DNA from: Acidobacteriota bacterium
GTDB taxonomy: Bacteria; Acidobacteriota; Thermoanaerobaculia; Multivoradales; Multivoraceae
DNA length: 64,000 nucleotides
Assembly (NCBI GenBank): GCA_003388555.1
Contig: QQVD01000042.1
Coordinates: 62,001-126,000 of the forward strand
Direction of reading: 5' to 3'
Program-made: the position numbers and the translations under genes
Shown: one piece after another, positions 4,837 through 30,350 of the stretch
Position numbering within the stretch: the stretch's first letter is position 1
How the letters are laid out: each line of letters begins with the position of its first letter
The notes under the pieces: generated by a model
What the model was told of the DNA's origin: nothing
What the model saw: only the letters and a program-made list of their open reading frames with translations
Databases searched by the model: none

Positions 4837-4886
4837 CCGTAGGCGGAAGCCTCGCCGGAGAACAAGGCTCGGCCACACCCGGCACC

Positions 4887-5019
4887 GAGGACCAGGAACA
4901 CCGCAGGGAGGTCGGATGCCGATGCCATCCATCCAACCGCCTGGGCGTGCTATGCGACCACAGATCGCCCGTTCCCGCGCGCCGGTGGCAGTGGCGTGTT
5001 GCCAACCGAGAAGTTGGGT
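4887..5019 (+). repeat. diverged third copy of the array leader (attI-like element)
   Basis: This stretch aligns with the leaders at 13291 and 26072. Shared landmarks in order are GAGGACC (4887), a GGGAGG block, TATGC followed by AGATCGC, CGTT-CCG-G, a GGTGGCAGTGG segment and a terminal CCAACCGAGAAGTTGGGT. The last is the counterpart of CTAACCAAGTAGTTGGGC in copy 2. The terminal GTTGGGT is at 5013-5019, and an inverted partner TACCCAAC follows at 5033-5040. In frame, the ATG in TATGCGACC gives a peptide resembling the leader peptides but running past the core. The homology was judged by eye and is less certain than that between copies 1 and 2. Confidence 0.5.
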
Positions 5020-5097
5020 AGGCAGAGAGAAGTACCCAACCCGAGGGTGAGCTCGGAAGCTCTGCCTGTGGCGGGACTTCCGAGTAGTATTCCGAGC

Positions 5098-5304
5098 ATG
5101 GACCTCGTTGAGATCCTCAAGCGCCCCGAAGGTAAGACGCTCGAGTTCAAGCGCGACCTCTCCTCGCCGGAGGAGGTAGAGGATCTTCTCGACAGGCTGT
5201 GCGTGCGGCTTGGCTTCTGCCTCCCGCCGGCCGACATCGTGCGTTTTGGAGAGGATCCACCTAGCTCCAACTCAGCCCGCGAGGGTTTCACCACGGGCTC
5301 CTAG
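5098..5304 (+). pseudogene. fused remnant: AlbA_2 N-terminus joined to an unrelated C-terminal fragment
   Basis: The 68-residue ORF begins MDLVEILKRPEGKTLEFKRDLSSPE. This is the opening of AlbA_2 (Schlafen-like, putative DNA-binding) transcriptional regulators, which normally continue for hundreds of residues. After that it switches to DLLDRLCVRLGFCLPPADI, a segment seen at the N-terminus of small unrelated hypothetical proteins, and then stops. A promoter-like TAGTAT lies just upstream (about 5088). The likely reading is a recombinant scrap at a cassette boundary; expression is possible but no function can be assigned. Confidence 0.5.
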
Positions 5305-6103
5305 GCGACACCGAGCCATCCCGTTCACCGCAGCCCACCCCGCGGCGATTCTGCCTCTCCTCCGTCCACTGGGTTCTCTGGCGGTGCCGGGAGCGCTTGT
5401 GGTGGGAACTGTCGCTCCCGACCTCGCCTACTTCCTGCCAGTCCCTGTAGAGCGGGAGGAGAGCCACAGTCTCGCTGGACTGTTCTGGTTCTGCCTGCCG
5501 GTCGGCCTCCTCGCATATGTGGCCTTCTACGTGGCTGTCGCGCCGCTTCTCGTAGAGCTCCTACCCTGGCGGGTTCAGGTGGCGGTCCATGGTTGGGCAG
5601 ACGGTCGGTTGCCGCGGGCGACCCTTGCTGCGGTGTTTGTGTCCCTGCTCGTTGGTGCCGTCACCCACATCGTGTGGGATTCCTTCACCCACAGCGACGG
5701 CTTCGTCGTTGTAGTCGTGCCTGCGCTCTCGGAGGCATTGTTCACGTGGCAGGGCTACACCTTCTACGTCTTCAAGTTGCTTCAGCACGGAAGCACTTTC
5801 ATGGGCGGGATCATCCTCGCATGGTGGGGCTACACGAAGCTGCCGCAGCCACCAGTAGAGTCAGGAGCTAGACCCCCTCTTCGCCGTCTTGCAGCGCTGG
5901 CTGCGTTGCTCATTCTCGGTCCAGCGTTGCTCGCTCTGGTGTCGGGGCTCGATCATCTGGATCAGGGCACTGGCATCCTCGGCCGGACGCGGTCCTTCCT
6001 GAGCGCCGCAATCTTCACCGGTGGTTCGGTGCTCATACCATGGGTGGTGCTCGTCGGTCTCCTTGCTCGCACTCGCCAGCTCGTTCGTGGGCGTTCCGCC
6101 TAG
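5246..6103 (+). CDS. DUF4184 family membrane protein
   Basis: The recognisable domain starts at IPFTAAHPAAILPLL (codon ATC at 5318). It continues with VGTVAPDLAYFL, HSLAGLFWFCLPVGLL and THIVWDSFTHSDGFVV, all standard DUF4184 landmarks, with about six membrane segments. Family members normally begin MPFTxxHPA, so the native start appears to have mutated from ATG to ATC. The nearest in-frame standard start upstream is TTG 5246, chosen here with low certainty. It reads through unrelated sequence that overlaps the preceding remnant. An attC-like site follows the stop immediately, so this behaves as a cassette gene. Function is unknown; the conserved His and Asp suggest metal binding. Confidence 0.7.
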   Translation: MERIHLAPTQPARVSPRAPRRHRAIPFTAAHPAAILPLLRPLGSLAVPGALVVGTVAPDLAYFLPVPVEREESHSLAGLFWFCLPVGLLAYVAFYVAVAPLLVELLPWRVQVAVHGWADGRLPRATLAAVFVSLLVGAVTHIVWDSFTHSDGFVVVVVPALSEALFTWQGYTFYVFKLLQHGSTFMGGIILAWWGYTKLPQPPVESGARPPLRRLAALAALLILGPALLALVSGLDHLDQGTGILGRTRSFLSAAIFTGGSVLIPWVVLVGLLARTRQLVRGRSA

Positions 6104-6220
6104 CGACGGTTGCAGCGGACGCTGCCCGGGCTGGTGGTTGGCAGCCCGTCGTCGAAACCGAAGTCACTCTCACCAATCAGCGCGCTCGTCAGCAGCCTTG
6201 CTGAGCTATGTCCGTCCGTA
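6098..6220 (+). other. attC-like site of the long lineage subfamily
   Basis: R'' is GCCTAGC at 6098-6104, overlapping the DUF4184 stop. It is followed by GACGGTTGCAGCGGACGCTG, the L'' side, and near the 3' end by CTTGCTGAGCTATGTCC, the L' side. The middle carries the ACCGAAGTCAC...CAGCGCGCTCG block shared with the sites at 27980 and 26667. The 3' core is degenerate (GTCCGTA). It is probably a decayed but genuine integron recombination site. Confidence 0.6.
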
Positions 6221-6257
6221 CGCGTTGCTTAACCCGCGGTGCAGCCGACCTGATGCC

Positions 6258-13148: not shown

Positions 13149-13290
13149 AGCGCGATCGCAGTCGGGCACCCCAGCTCGCTAGTCGACGTTGCCCTCAGCG
13201 TCCCTGGCCTCTCGGCCCTTGGCCCGGCCCGCCCAGCCGCGGCACTGCAAGCCCGGGGTCGTCCAGACCGTGGCCCCCGTGGGACGAGCG

Positions 13291-13513
13291 TGAGCAGGCT
13301 CGAACGGCGTCGGTGGTGCCGGGGGCGTTATCGAGCGGAGCCAGGCTGCCTAACCGCTGCGCTAGAATTCCTCGCGAGGACCGAAAGCGCAGGAAGGGAG
13401 GGCAGATGCGGAGACCGCTTCATTCCCGTGCCGGAGCAGTTATGCAGCGAGATCGCGCTCGTTTCCGTGATTCGGCGGCGTTGATGGTGCCGCTAGCCAA
13501 GTAGTTGTGCGGT
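13291..13513 (+). repeat. array leader repeat, copy 1 (attI-like, with promoter and small ORF)
   Basis: This 223-bp element is a close copy of 26072-26293 in the same orientation. It contains GTTATCGAGCG near its start, a -10-like TAGAAT at 13363-13368 and a GAGGACC motif. A Shine-Dalgarno and a small ORF follow (13406-13504). A run of 35 bp (13436-13470) is identical to copy 2. It ends at GCTAGCCAAGTAGTTGTGC, whose GTTGTGC at 13504-13510 is the first cassette core. GTTATGCAGC followed by an inverted CTAxxCAA...GTTG simple site resembles class 1 attI1 as I remember it. No integrase gene lies next to it. Confidence 0.7.
13406..13504 (+). CDS. leader small ORF, copy 1 (32 aa)
   Basis: ATG 13406 follows a GGGAGGG Shine-Dalgarno and opens a 32-codon frame ending in a TAG that overlaps the first G of the cassette core. 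Its C-terminal part, AVMQRDRARFRDSAA, matches the leader ORF at 26173-26286. Class 1 attI1 also carries a short ORF (ORF-11) that helps translate the first cassette, so a similar role is plausible. The strong nucleotide conservation may instead reflect a DNA-binding site, and coding status is uncertain. Confidence 0.4.
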   Translation: MRRPLHSRAGAVMQRDRARFRDSAALMVPLAK

Positions 13514-13971
13514 CTGAAGTGCGGTACCAGGGTGGAGATGTTCTCGCCAGCTGTGGCCCGGTCACTTCCCACTGGGGCTTGAAGCTGTGGCGGCTCGTAT
13601 TCTTCCCAGAGGAGACACTGTTGTGGCCGTACTCGCGGGCAGAGGGCTTTCGGGTCGGCTTTGCGCAGTGCTTGCCAGGCGTTTCGTTCCCGAATGTCAT
13701 ACCAGTTGCCCTTGAAGAGCCAGGTAAACCAAGTCCTCTGCCGCCGGCCGGTCGCCGCCTCGCGAACTCAGTCCTGAGCAGGATCGTAGTGCGTTCGAAG
13801 TGGAGTCGCAACGTCATCGCGTTCGAGTGCCCGGATCAAACCTTGCGGGTCGGTATCTGGCACCGCGCCGCTACCGAGGAATACTGTACGCTTCTAGGCG
13901 AACTGTTTGAAGAGCGCTTTGCTACCGAGGGATTTTCAGACTCCGCATTGGTGCGGAAGCTCAAGTCATGA
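13507..13971 (+). CDS. cassette-encoded hypothetical protein (array A, cassette 1)
   Basis: This 154-residue protein is not recognised. GTG 13507 lies inside the cassette core, three bases after the leader ORF's TAG, so it has no room for its own leader and is probably translated by coupling to the leader ORF. Visible features are a WGLKLWRLVFFPEE segment, a central FPNVIPVALEEPGKPSP strand, a Ser/Arg-rich helix and an acidic C-terminal helix (YCTLLGELFEERF). It looks soluble. It is bounded by the leader core and an attC site, so it is a single-gene cassette. Confidence 0.55.
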   Translation: MRSEVRYQGGDVLASCGPVTSHWGLKLWRLVFFPEETLLWPYSRAEGFRVGFAQCLPGVSFPNVIPVALEEPGKPSPLPPAGRRLANSVLSRIVVRSKWSRNVIAFECPDQTLRVGIWHRAATEEYCTLLGELFEERFATEGFSDSALVRKLKS

Positions 13972-13980
13972 CGATAGGTT

Positions 13981-14067
13981 TCACAAGAAGAGAATTGCAG
14001 TGGACCCGCTCACGCTCGCGTTGTTGCGCGTTCCCCGGCGGCGCCTCTGAGTTCTGATCCGTTGGGC
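13981..14067 (+). other. attC site (array A, after cassette 1)
   Basis: The 3' half is canonical: CGCCTCTGAGTTCTGATCC then the core GTTGGGC at 14061-14067. The L'' side is AGAGAATTGCAGTGGACCCG, almost identical to the start of the site at 28736. R'' is degenerate (TCACAAG at 13981-13987) but still pairs with the cassette-1 start GTTGTGC at five of seven positions. The central ACGCTCGCGTTGTTGCGCG forms a small hairpin. Confidence 0.7.
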
Positions 14068-22826: not shown

Positions 22827-23018
22827 TGACGGGGTGACTCGAGGGTCGTCGAGCCGGGGCGTCGTCAACTGTCTGGGCAGGAGGGCGTCGCTGCTGCGGC
22901 CGTCGCCCGGCGCGCGGCTGCTAGCCTCTCGACAGCTCTCGATCAACCCACTCCGCAGCGCGCGGGCCTGCGCCGCCGAGTCGGAACGGCCGCGCGGCGT
23001 ACTGCGCAAGGAACGACC

Positions 23019-24880: not shown

Positions 24881-26074
24881 ATGAACGAAACCAGCTCGGG
24901 TCTCCGTGCCTCCTCGGAGGCTCTGCAGCCGATTGGGTCACGCGGACTGGCTTCCGTCCTGGCTTCGATGGCGCTGCTTCCCCTGCCCGTACTGCACGCC
25001 TCGCAGCCCGGCGACGACCTCGCCTCGCGAGCCCGCACCTACCTCGAGAAGCGAGCCGACGCACCGGCCTTCAGTGCCGCGATCCTGATCGCCTCACGCG
25101 GTGAGGTCGTCGTGCGGGAGGCCTACGGAATGGCCGACTTCGAGCTCGCCGTGCCGCTGCGCCCGGATCACGTCTTCCGCATCGGCTCGTTGACCAAGCC
25201 GTTCACCGCGGCCGCCGCCTTGAGGCTGCGCGACGAGGATCGGCTCGAGTTGTCCACTTCGGTCTGCGACTTCGTGCTTCGCTGCCCGTCGGCCTGGCGC
25301 CAGGTGACGATCGCCCACCTCCTCGGCCACACCTCCGGCATCCCCGACCTGTTCGGGCATCTCGATGCGGTGCCGGCGCCGGCGACCCGCGCCGAGGTCG
25401 ACCGGGTCCTCGAGGAGGTCGGCGAGCTGGCTCTCGAGTCGAGCCCGGGCGCAAGCTACGCCTACAGCAACTTCAACTACGTCCTCCTCGGTTACGTCAT
25501 CGAGGTGATCGCGGGGAAGAGCTGGGAGTCGTTCCTGCTCAGCGACGTCCTGCTGCCCGACGTCATGCCCGACACCCGCTACGACGATGTCTGGGCTGTG
25601 GTGCCGCGGCGGGTGCACGGATACGAGCTGGAGAACGGCGAGCTCCGCCTCACCCGCTACACCGACCACGCGGCCTACGCCGCCGGCGGCCTGCGCTCGA
25701 CCCTCGACGATCTGCGGCGCTGGAGCGATGCCTACTGGGCAGGCGGTATCGTGCCCAAGGCGACCGTCGCCCAGGCAGTCACTCCCGGGCTCGGAAGCTA
25801 CGGCTACGGTTGGCAGACCACCCAGCACTTCGGAAAGACCGTTCACAACCACACGGGGGGTATGCGCGGCTTCGCCTCCCACCTCGCGTTCTATCCGGGC
25901 GAGGAGCTCCTGATCATCGTGCTCTCCAACGTCGAGGACGAGAACACCAAAGGCACCGCCTGCGATCTCGCTGCGCTGGCCTTCGCACCCGAGGCGGTGC
26001 CGTCGCCGGGTATTGTGATGGAGCAGTGGTTGGAGCGCGCGAACGAAGAGCGCTGTGCCGTGCGGCAAGAGTGA
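24881..26074 (+). CDS. serine hydrolase, beta-lactamase/class C PBP-like
   Basis: The 397-residue protein has an N-terminal hydrophobic stretch (LASVLASMALLPLPVLHA) as a probable signal. It then carries the class C triad: the SxxK motif SLTK near residue 108, YSN at about residue 193 and the HTGG motif (KTG equivalent) near residue 328. It belongs to the esterase / penicillin-recognising family rather than to the resistance beta-lactamases proper. It likely acts on peptidoglycan-related or ester substrates in the periplasm. Leader repeat copy 2 starts exactly at its TGA (26072). Confidence 0.9.
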   Translation: MNETSSGLRASSEALQPIGSRGLASVLASMALLPLPVLHASQPGDDLASRARTYLEKRADAPAFSAAILIASRGEVVVREAYGMADFELAVPLRPDHVFRIGSLTKPFTAAAALRLRDEDRLELSTSVCDFVLRCPSAWRQVTIAHLLGHTSGIPDLFGHLDAVPAPATRAEVDRVLEEVGELALESSPGASYAYSNFNYVLLGYVIEVIAGKSWESFLLSDVLLPDVMPDTRYDDVWAVVPRRVHGYELENGELRLTRYTDHAAYAAGGLRSTLDDLRRWSDAYWAGGIVPKATVAQAVTPGLGSYGYGWQTTQHFGKTVHNHTGGMRGFASHLAFYPGEELLIIVLSNVEDENTKGTACDLAALAFAPEAVPSPGIVMEQWLERANEERCAVRQE

Positions 26075-26293
26075 GCAGGGTCGAAAGGGCGTCGCTGGCG
26101 CGGGGCGCGTTATCGAGCGAGTCCAGGCTGCATAACTGCTGCGCTACAATTCCCAATGAGGACCGACAAACCATGACGGGCGGGCAGGAGCGGAGACCCT
26201 CCACTCCCGGGCTGGAGGCAGTTATGCAGCGAGATCGCGCTCGTTTCCGTGAATCGGCGGCGATTGTGGCGCCGCTAACCAAGTAGTTGGGCT
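26072..26293 (+). repeat. array leader repeat, copy 2 (attI-like, with promoter and small ORF)
   Basis: This 222-bp element matches 13291-13513 almost throughout. It has GTTATCGAGCGAG, a -10-like TACAAT at 26145-26150, the GAGGACC motif, a 37-codon ORF (26173-26286) and the identical 35-bp run at 26218-26252. It ends in CTAACCAAGTAGTTGGGC with core GTTGGGC at 26286-26292. Inside it, GCTGCATAACTGC (26127-26139) and GCAGTTATGCAGC (26218-26230) form a perfect 13-bp inverted repeat. Position and structure suggest an attI-type entry site plus promoter for array B, but no integrase gene flanks it. Confidence 0.7.
26173..26286 (+). CDS. leader small ORF, copy 2 (37 aa)
   Basis: ATG 26173 opens 37 codons that end with TAG overlapping the first G of the array-B core. 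The C-terminal 20 residues are VMQRDRARFRESAAIVAPLT, close to the copy-1 peptide. The Shine-Dalgarno is weak. The most conserved DNA lies within this frame, so either a coding leader (as attI1 ORF-11) or a binding-site constraint could explain it. Confidence 0.4.
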   Translation: MTGGQERRPSTPGLEAVMQRDRARFRESAAIVAPLTK

Positions 26294-26300
26294 GCGAGAG

Positions 26301-26657
26301 GTGGGGAACTGGTTAGAAGCGTCTTTGGTTCCGACGGCCTTCTTGGTGGTGGCTGCGATCCATACCCCTAGGCAAGGCTCGCCGAAGGCTCCGTGGCTTG
26401 GGCTCGTCGCGTTCAACGCCGTCGGAGTTGCCTTGGCCCTAGCCGCAGGGCTCTTCGGAGAGGTAGAGGGAGCCGTGCGAAGAACGAGTGTTCTTTACTC
26501 ATTCATCTCCTTCGGGGGCACGAGCTGCTACGTGTCCTTTGTGCATCTCTGGAAACCCGGATCGAAGTGGCTCCTGCTGTTCGTGCTCCCTATCGCGCTG
26601 TTTGTCACTCTAGGAACCGCCCTATGGCATGCGATGCTCTTGGGGTACCAGTCGTGA
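26301..26657 (+). CDS. cassette membrane protein, unknown function
   Basis: The 118-residue protein has about four membrane segments, at residues 8-20, 30-50, 65-85 and 90-112, joined by short loops. GTG 26301 lies 15 bp after the leader core. The upstream leader ORF may assist translation. It is the first cassette of array B and is bounded by GTTGGGCTGCGAGAG on the left and its perfect 15-bp inverse at 26659-26673. No family is recognised. Confidence 0.6.
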   Translation: MGNWLEASLVPTAFLVVAAIHTPRQGSPKAPWLGLVAFNAVGVALALAAGLFGEVEGAVRRTSVLYSFISFGGTSCYVSFVHLWKPGSKWLLLFVLPIALFVTLGTALWHAMLLGYQS

Positions 26658-26666
26658 GCTCTCGCA

Positions 26667-26793
26667 GCCCAACAACAAGCTGCAGCGGGCGCTGCCCGGG
26701 CTCGCGGCTGCTAGCCTGTTGCTATGAATCCGAAGTCACAGCCACCCATCCGCGCGCTCGCCAGCAGCGCCGCTGAGCTTTGATCCGTTAGGC
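26667..26793 (+). other. attC site (long subfamily), after first array-B cassette
   Basis: R'' is GCCCAAC (26667-26673), L'' side AACAAGCTGCAGCGGGCGCTG, and the L' side CGCCGCTGAGCTTTGATCC leads into core GTTAGGC (26787-26793). The arms AAGCTGCAGCGG and CCGCTGAGCTT pair with one extrahelical base, the hallmark of attC bottom-strand folding. The 127-bp length and the ATCCGAAGTCAC middle match the other long sites in the window. Confidence 0.85.
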
Positions 26794-27403: not shown

Positions 27404-27485
27404 GCCTAACCAAGGCGCTACAGCCGGACCAAGAGCTTCGGCTTCGCCTCCGGCTCTCTGCCGCTGAGCGCCAAGTCCGTTGGGC
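27404..27485 (+). other. attC site (short type)
   Basis: This is an 82-bp canonical site: R'' GCCTAAC (27404-27410), then CAAGGCGCTACAGCCGGACC, a central hairpin GAGCTTCGGCTTCGCCTC, GCCGCTGAGCGCCAAGTCC and core GTTGGGC (27479-27485). The two arms pair with an extrahelical base. Its sequence is unlike the long subfamily, so it came from another source. Confidence 0.9.
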
Positions 27486-27979: not shown

Positions 27980-28106
27980 GCCCAACAACAAGCTGCAGCG
28001 GACGCTGCCCGTGGTCGCGGCGGCAAGCCCTTGGCTATGAGACCGAAGTCACTCCCACTCAACAGCGCGCTTCTCAGCAGCGCCGCTGAACTTCGATCCG
28101 TGGACG
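27980..28106 (+). other. attC site (long subfamily)
   Basis: R'' is GCCCAAC (27980-27986), then AACAAGCTGCAGCGGACGCTG. The middle carries GACCGAAGTCACTCCCACTC and CAGCGCGCTTCTCAGCAGCG, and the 3' arm is CCGCTGAACTTCGATCC. The core is GTGGACG (28100-28106), a variant that nevertheless pairs with the R'' GTCCAAC of the next cassette (28736). It therefore reflects that cassette's own end. Confidence 0.85.
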
Positions 28107-28735: not shown

Positions 28736-28863
28736 GTCCAACAAGAGAACTGCAGTGGGCCCCGCTCGCGCTCGCGGTTGCTAGGCTTCTCCAATGACGC
28801 CAACATCCTATCCGTCCAGTGGCGCGCTAGCCAGCAGCGCCGCTGAGCTTTGATCCGTTGGGT
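28736..28863 (+). other. attC site (long subfamily)
   Basis: R'' is GTCCAAC (28736-28742), then AAGAGAACTGCAGTGGGCCC. The middle holds CGCGCTCGCGGTTGCTAGG and CCAGTGGCGCGCTAGCCAGC, and the 3' arm GCCGCTGAGCTTTGATCC leads to core GTTGGGT (28857-28863). The 5' arm is nearly the same as that of the site at 13981 in array A, linking the two arrays. Confidence 0.85.
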
Positions 28864-29619: not shown

Positions 29620-29696
29620 GCCCTACCAAGCGAGTCCAGCGGACGAGACCCGCCGCTTCGCACCGGGTTTCGCCGCTGATCCGCGGGCCGTTAGGC
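29620..29696 (+). other. attC site (short type)
   Basis: R'' is degenerate (GCCCTAC, 29620-29626) but still pairs through CTGCCGCCCTAC with the cassette start GTTGGGTGGCAG. The L'' side is AAGCGAGTCCAGCGGACGAG, the centre hairpin is CCGCCGCTTCGCACCGGG, and core GTTAGGC is at 29690-29696. About 77 bp. Confidence 0.7.
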
Positions 29697-29982: not shown

Positions 29983-30211
29983 GGTGACCAACATCTCAGG
30001 ACACGGCTTTTGGATCTTGGTGAGCGAGGGCGAGTTCTTCCTGCCCTTCGATGAGTTCCCCTGGTTTCGTGATGCCTCGGTAGCCGCGATCGCGAACGTC
30101 GAGATGCCACATCCGGGCCACCTCTTCTGGCCTTCTCTGGACATCGACTTGAGTCTTGATTCGATCAGGCACCCAGAGAAGTATCCGTTGGTGGCCAGGG
30201 TGGACGCCTAA
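29954..30211 (+). CDS. DUF2442 protein (partner of DUF4160)
   Basis: The 85-residue protein has the DUF2442 core: IEVTNISGHGFWILVSEGEFFLPFDEFPWFRDAS, then IANVEMPHPGHLFWPSLDIDLSLDSIRHPEKYPL. DUF2442 and DUF4160 genes are commonly adjacent and are suspected to form a toxin-antitoxin-like pair; the partner here is broken. ATG 29954 overlaps the end of the DUF4160 frame by 29 bp. Both occupy a single cassette between attC sites at 29690 and 30206. Confidence 0.9.
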   Translation: MPGTSTFQIEVTNISGHGFWILVSEGEFFLPFDEFPWFRDASVAAIANVEMPHPGHLFWPSLDIDLSLDSIRHPEKYPLVARVDA

Positions 30212-30350
30212 CAACAAGCTTCAGCGGACGCTGCTCGCGCTCGCGGTCGCTGCCGGCGCTCGCGGCCGCTAGCCCGTCGCCATGACCTGTGTTCATCTCC
30301 GCTCCTAAGCGCGCTCGCCTGCAGCGCCGCTGAGCTTTGATCCGTTGTCT
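30206..30350 (+). other. attC site (long subfamily)
   Basis: R'' is GCCTAAC (30206-30212), L'' side AACAAGCTTCAGCGGACGCTG. A doubled CGCGCTCGCGGTCGCTG / GGCGCTCGCGGCCGCTAGC centre follows, then GCAGCGCCGCTGAGCTTTGATCC and a degenerate core GTTGTCT (30344-30350). At 145 bp it is longer than its relatives because of the duplicated inner arm. R'' pairs with the cassette start GTTAGGCGTC. Confidence 0.8.

Follow-up and report, generated by a model that had tools for sequence, protein, structure and literature searches.

The sequence at positions 4886-5019 of the window is best read as a paralogue, now decayed, of an integron attI site, of which the genome appears to hold four copies. The window is the whole stretch of 64,000 nucleotides analyzed here (positions 62001-126000 of contig C8), and it comes from a 6.8-Mb draft genome of 74 contigs that is 98.8% complete and is taken to belong to the class Thermoanaerobaculia (Acidobacteriota). 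Three of the copies, called leaders A, B, and C, lie in the window (Table 1), and the fourth, leader D, lies elsewhere in the genome, on contig C13. The paralogy of the leaders, their anatomy, the break in their homology at the crossover point, the attC-bearing cassettes behind each copy, and the lack of a detectable intI were all computed directly. We propose, with a probability of roughly 0.7 judged from sequence, that the leaders belong to a dispersed integron with several attI sites, which probably received its cassettes from an integrase that acted in trans and has since been lost or was missed by the assembly.

According to this proposal, IntI would bind a leader at its GTTATGCAGC-type repeats, its inverted half-core, and its GTTRRRY core, and it would recombine the duplex attI, at its G^TT, with the attC of a circular cassette, which would take part as a folded single strand. 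Each attI copy would then found and feed its own cassette array, with one IntI acting in trans on all four leaders. Later loss of the enzyme, or its location in an assembly gap, would account for its absence from the sequence, and subsequent decay may have affected the arrays and, among the leaders, the oldest one (A), having gone furthest at 4887.

Four related leader sequences in one genome

An earlier note on this DNA had marked 4887-5019 as a third, diverged leader copy. A nucleotide HMM built from leaders B (13290-13512), C (26072-26294), and D, with A left out, nearly reproduced these coordinates (4890-5018, or 4886-5019 when the profile was made from B and C only). When 249 kb of sequence from the same genome was searched, copy A was the next-best match of the B+C+D profile (E 7e-4, 16.3 bits), and the first unrelated match below it scored 4.6 bits; with the B+C-only profile, copy A had an E of 0.0028. 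The pairwise alignment with shuffled controls proposed in the note was performed with 4887-5019 (A) against 13303-13530 (B), 26085-26302 (C), and D. In this comparison, A scored 60 against B and 59 against C, the shuffled sequences scored 25 ± 4, and neither score was matched by any of 300 shuffles or 473 tiles of the window. The score of A against D alone (27) was no better than chance (shuffles, 27). The motifs that had been named for A (GAGGACC, TATGC, CGTT.CCG, and CCAACCGAGAAGTTGGGT) do occur in the stated order.

Leaders B and C share 82% identity across 208 bp, and the better-kept leaders are about 200-220 bp long. Copy A is much more diverged than B and C and is the most decayed leader. 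When the whole 6.8-Mb genome was scored with R2, a short, 79-base, core-only leader model, copy A ranked fourth (15.8 bits, E 0.10), with noise starting at 15.5 bits. Because this score is barely above the noise, the case for copy A is one of sequence plus position.

The search for further copies, also suggested in the note, returned one more leader, D. Full-length copies were found neither in 60 relatives by BLAST nor in 149 genomes of the class with R2; these searches gave three weak matches with E values of 3e-4 to 7e-4. A scan for the exact leader pattern found no match among 84,980 species, one genome each. Weak leader matches of the R3 model on contigs C9 and C55 were rejected, as they had no core and no attC and one was intragenic. 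The first 36 kb of the window had no match in Rfam, and a synteny comparison of the C locus found nothing close to its beta-lactamase-like gene among the 23 other genomes of the family.

Table 1. Leaders, cassettes, and attC sites in the window
Feature	Position	Strand	Description
Leader A, decayed attI-like	4886-5019	+	held-out profile match; shuffles 0/300
Core of leader A	5013-5019	+	GTTGGGT; presumed crossover G5013^T5014, anchored alignment
Single cassette of array A	5014-6221	+	DUF4184 gene (about 5327-6103) plus attC
attC of array A	6098-6221	+	both core boxes mutated (GCCTAGC ... CCGTAC)
Leader B, attI-like	13291-13510	+	core GTTGTGC 13504-13510; GCTAGC half-core
Small ORF in leader B, putative	13442-13504	+	MQRDRARFRDSAALMVPLAK-stop; stop overlaps core G
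Truncated attC closing cassette B	13981-14067	+	R' GTTGGGC intact; R1 46.7 bits, outside training set
Leader C, attI-like	26072-26292	+	core GTTGGGC 26286-26292
Small ORF in leader C, putative	26224-26286	+	MQRDRARFRESAAIVAPLTK-stop
attC 1, array C	26667-26793	+	both cores intact; attC hairpin folds on bottom strand
Short-type attC, array C	27404-27485	+	core boxes GCCTAAC/GTTGGGC
attC with mutated R' box, array C	27980-28106	+	R1
attC, array C	28736-28863	+	R1
Short-type attC, array C	29620-29696	+	folds, z -2.6
attC with mutated R' box (GTTGTCT), array C	30206-30350	+	R1; folds, z -2.6

Anatomy of the leaders

At an attI site, the sequence 3' of the core G comes from whichever cassette was inserted first, so a homology break at G^TT among copies is the mark expected of attI. 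Each leader carries a core at the junction with its first cassette (GTTGGGT in A, GTTGTGC in B, GTTGGGC in C, and GTTAGGC in D), and these cores follow GTTRRRY except that the core of B deviates by one base. When B, C, and D were anchored on the core G, 13-14 of the 15 positions just 5' of it were identical, the GTT was shared by all three, and identity then fell to chance level; the BLAST alignment of B with C stops at 13510, the final base of the core. An inverted half-core is found beside the core of each leader (GCTAGC/GCTAAC immediately 5' of it in B, C, and D; GCCAAC in A). The leaders have no extended hairpin in the core region (z -0.3 to -1.5), compared with z values of -2 to -3 for several of the attC sites.

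The better-kept leaders also contain candidate accessory repeats. Leaders B, C, and D all carry GTTATGCAGC at -65. A direct copy of this type is at -177/-178 (with two mismatches in B and C), and an inverted copy is at -159 in B and C. In leader B these repeats are GTTATCGAGC at 13327, inverted GCTGCCTAAC at 13345, and GTTATGCAGC at 13439, and in leader C they include GTTATGCAGC at 26221 and the inverted copy at 26127. There are two repeat matches with at most one mismatch per leader, a result obtained in 0 of 2000 shuffles; leader A is without the GTTATGCAGC repeat. By sequence, the repeats are close to DR1 and DR2 of attI1, which read GTTATGGAGC at -51 and GTTACGCAGC at -32 when checked against plasmid records, and they are candidate integrase-binding repeats. 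At 80 loci, the GTTATGCAGC motif had 5 and 3 matches beside intI genes versus 2.0 and 2.7 expected. As this is no clear enrichment, part of the resemblance to the attI1 repeats may be coincidental.

The attI cores that lie 3' of intI at two loci of the same class, GCTAAGTGGTAGTTGGGC (L089) and TTAAATAGTAGTTAGGT (L075), have the same build as the GCTARCCAAGTAGTTRGGC of the leader. R2 had no match over 31 intI loci, which suggests that attI sequences diverge quickly and have mainly the core in common.

A 20-codon frame of the form MQR..AR.RD.AA.....LAK is present in B, C, and D (D being in locus L019), with a TAG stop that overlaps the core G. A codon-position test of this small ORF showed no third-position bias in its substitutions. 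We found no sigma-70-type promoter in the three window leaders, and the -10-like sequences TACAAT (leader C) and TAGAAT (leader B) were too little to call one.

Cassettes and attC sites behind the leaders

The description of these elements in the earlier note as leaders of cassette blocks, or array-founding elements, is well supported by their attI anatomy and by the attC-bearing cassettes that follow all four of them. Downstream of A, the DUF4184 gene was verified (PF13803, 4.7e-47), as was the attC-like site at 6098, which is 81% identical to another attC over 54 nt and scores 100 bits with R1, a covariance model made from seven attC sites of which it is one. A search of the genome with R1 gave about 16 good attC sites: one in array A, one (truncated) in B, four long ones in C, three in D, and others in an array on contig C41 that continues to the contig end. 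The two short sites of array C were found by eye. Members of this attC family are about 127 bp long, with an R'' box like GCCYAAC and an R' box like GTTRGGC, and several have bottom-strand attC hairpins.

Base composition changes at the leaders, GC3 being 0.85-0.90 in the gene 5' of each leader and mostly 0.64-0.75 in the cassettes; in array A, the values are 0.85-0.87 for the upstream genes and 0.71 for the cassette. Core boxes have decayed in A (both boxes), in B (R'' lost), and in several attC sites of C and D, which agrees with a long absence of the integrase.

Several other features were observed in these regions. Between leader A and the DUF4184 gene (5096-5304) is a short open frame beginning MDLVEILKRPEGKTLEFKRDLSSPE, which has no Pfam match and resembles the beginning of a further cassette gene that has been cut short. 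In most long attC sites, the 3' half holds a small ORF, 18-19 codons long (26724-26783 and 28794-28853 in the window, and in the attC sites of loci L019 and L051), that reads roughly MNPKSxPxxSALxSSAAEL-stop, and most of these ORFs have a TAGCCT-like sequence shortly 5' of the ATG. One variant is a codon shorter and in frame, another has lost its stop and stays open into the cassette gene that follows, and an excess of third-position changes was seen in the last six codons only. The segment at 22893-22981, between a methyltransferase and an amidohydrolase gene, is attC-like but has no core boxes (R1, 36 bits) and is perhaps an attC relic. An attC-stem-like repeat (GCAGAGCTGCAGTGGACGCTGCTGG...) is present in more than one copy at contig ends (C16:166395-166583 and C6:1-200), again without core boxes or cassettes.

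Integrase genes and genome setting

No intI above the cut-off was found in this draft, 98.8% complete genome, and no intI fragment was found genome-wide or in the 249 kb of sequence around the arrays. The best profile matches were XerC and XerD, whose alignments leave out the middle part of the IntI profile, from about position 177 to 224-253. Among genomes of the class, 51 of 149 contain IntI. The intI gene of genome G001 was considered as a leader neighbor and rejected, as it lies at a contig end where no leader-like sequence was seen.

In the genome analyzed here, none of the four leaders is linked to intI, and the leaders adjoin ordinary host genes. The assembly breaks within at least one array, at a copy of a group II intron, so intI may be unassembled. 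The 3' end of this intron occurs at C41:55170-55297, C72:9878-10004, C8:105-231, and C27:12502-12564 (three of the copies match RF00029), and it closes several contigs. At all four places it is followed by GTAAGGATCTACCAATG, a Shine-Dalgarno-like AAGGA with an ATG; in C41 this ATG is inside an attC, and elsewhere it appears to start host genes.

Alternative explanations

The proposal in the earlier note that the leaders arose by repeated copying fits the presence of four related copies at four unrelated positions (three in the window and one on C13) that have no flanking genes in common, but it is not the only history that would leave such copies. They may instead be remnants of several complete integrons (intI-attI-array), each of which has had its own intI deleted, an explanation that we consider unlikely. 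In several genomes of the class, intI is on the same strand and just upstream of attI, and the distance from the leader core to the upstream stop (177-356 bp) resembles the intI-to-core distances of 135 bp (L075) and 246 bp (L089); in addition, all four upstream genes are co-oriented with their array. The explanation is nevertheless costly, since it calls for four clean deletions that left the same leader beside four unrelated host genes. Furthermore, the intI fragments that might have remained are missing from the genome and from the sequence around the arrays, and the stop codon at which the homology of leader C starts belongs to a host gene whose GC3 is host-like. From these two results, we conclude that separate lost integrons are less likely than attI sites served in trans.

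Two other readings have little probability. If copy A were a chance resemblance and B, C, and D alone were true leaders, its near-noise core-only score and its lack of similarity to D taken alone would be explained. Against this, the full-length held-out profile places a wide gap between A and the next unrelated match, the alignment of A runs exactly to the core, and A is 1.1 kb 5' of an attC of the same family, where base composition turns from host-like to cassette-like; chance is thus a very improbable source of copy A. Slightly less probable still is that the leader is another kind of repeat, such as a small transposable or regulatory element, whose GTT-bearing end was used as an attG-like integrase target. 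Non-classical attG sites have been mentioned for integron integrases (PMC12901181), the copies are at unrelated sites, and leader C contains an inverted repeat (26107-26250) that folds on either strand (z about -3). However, every copy found in the genome has a core at its end and a cassette behind it; none was found without a cassette, as would also be expected of an ordinary repeat.

Implications

In descriptions of integrons, a single attI lies next to intI. Both attI sites and attC clusters without intI are known, and the literature searched, which included few subscription papers, contained no account of a genome that lacks intI but has several paralogous attI heads. Four attI-like heads without a detectable intI would represent one concrete route to the widespread intI-less cassette clusters, namely dispersal of attI followed by loss of the enzyme. 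Whether this amounts to a multi-headed integron, in which attI is a dispersed repeat, one integrase serves several arrays, and the arrays outlive the integrase, is a more tentative matter, to which we give somewhat less than even odds. If it is true, attI is a copyable unit, and attI-led arrays form a third class, intermediate between complete integrons and the ordinary attC clusters that lack intI. Since current tools seek attI in class 1 integrons only, orphan attI sites may be overlooked elsewhere, and those outside class 1 can be sought by comparing the array leaders of one genome.

Comparison with known systems

The leaders resemble known attI sites (attI1 of class 1 integrons and those of Thermoanaerobaculia) in heading an array, in having a GTTRRRY core with an inverted half-core, and in their repeats of the form GTTAYGSAGC, which are candidate accessory sites. 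They differ in that no intI adjoins them and that four paralogous copies are present in one genome. Compared with attI1, their repeats span about 180 bp and one is inverted. Their small ORF, which reaches the core, is reminiscent of attI1 ORF-11, but it has its own stop, whereas the stop of ORF-11 is supplied by the cassette (PMC8876359). Sites of attI outside class 1 are poorly described and are not sought by IntegronFinder (PMC9024848).

Arrays C, D, and C41 each have two or more attC sites and no intI was found with them, so they qualify as CALINs (clusters of attC sites lacking an integron-integrase); array A does not, arrays A and B having a single attC each. The origins proposed for CALINs include intI loss and off-target insertion (PMC8618304), and the arrays described here are different in beginning with a shared attI-like leader. 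In the integron remnant of Treponema phagedenis, attC sites and cassettes persist after intI loss (PMC3607928), but this remnant is a single locus for which no attI copies are described.

A precedent for mobile attI sequence is provided by the delta-attI-type cassettes of mobile integrons, which carry attI copies that have moved away from the platform (one keeps 244 nt of attI2) and are recombined by IntI1 (PMC12901181). The host-like GC3 of the upstream genes disfavors the possibility that these genes are the ORFs of such cassettes. In a delta-attI-type unit, the attI copy lies at the end of a cassette within an array, whereas the leaders in this genome start arrays at separate chromosomal sites, and the genes 5' of them look like host DNA.
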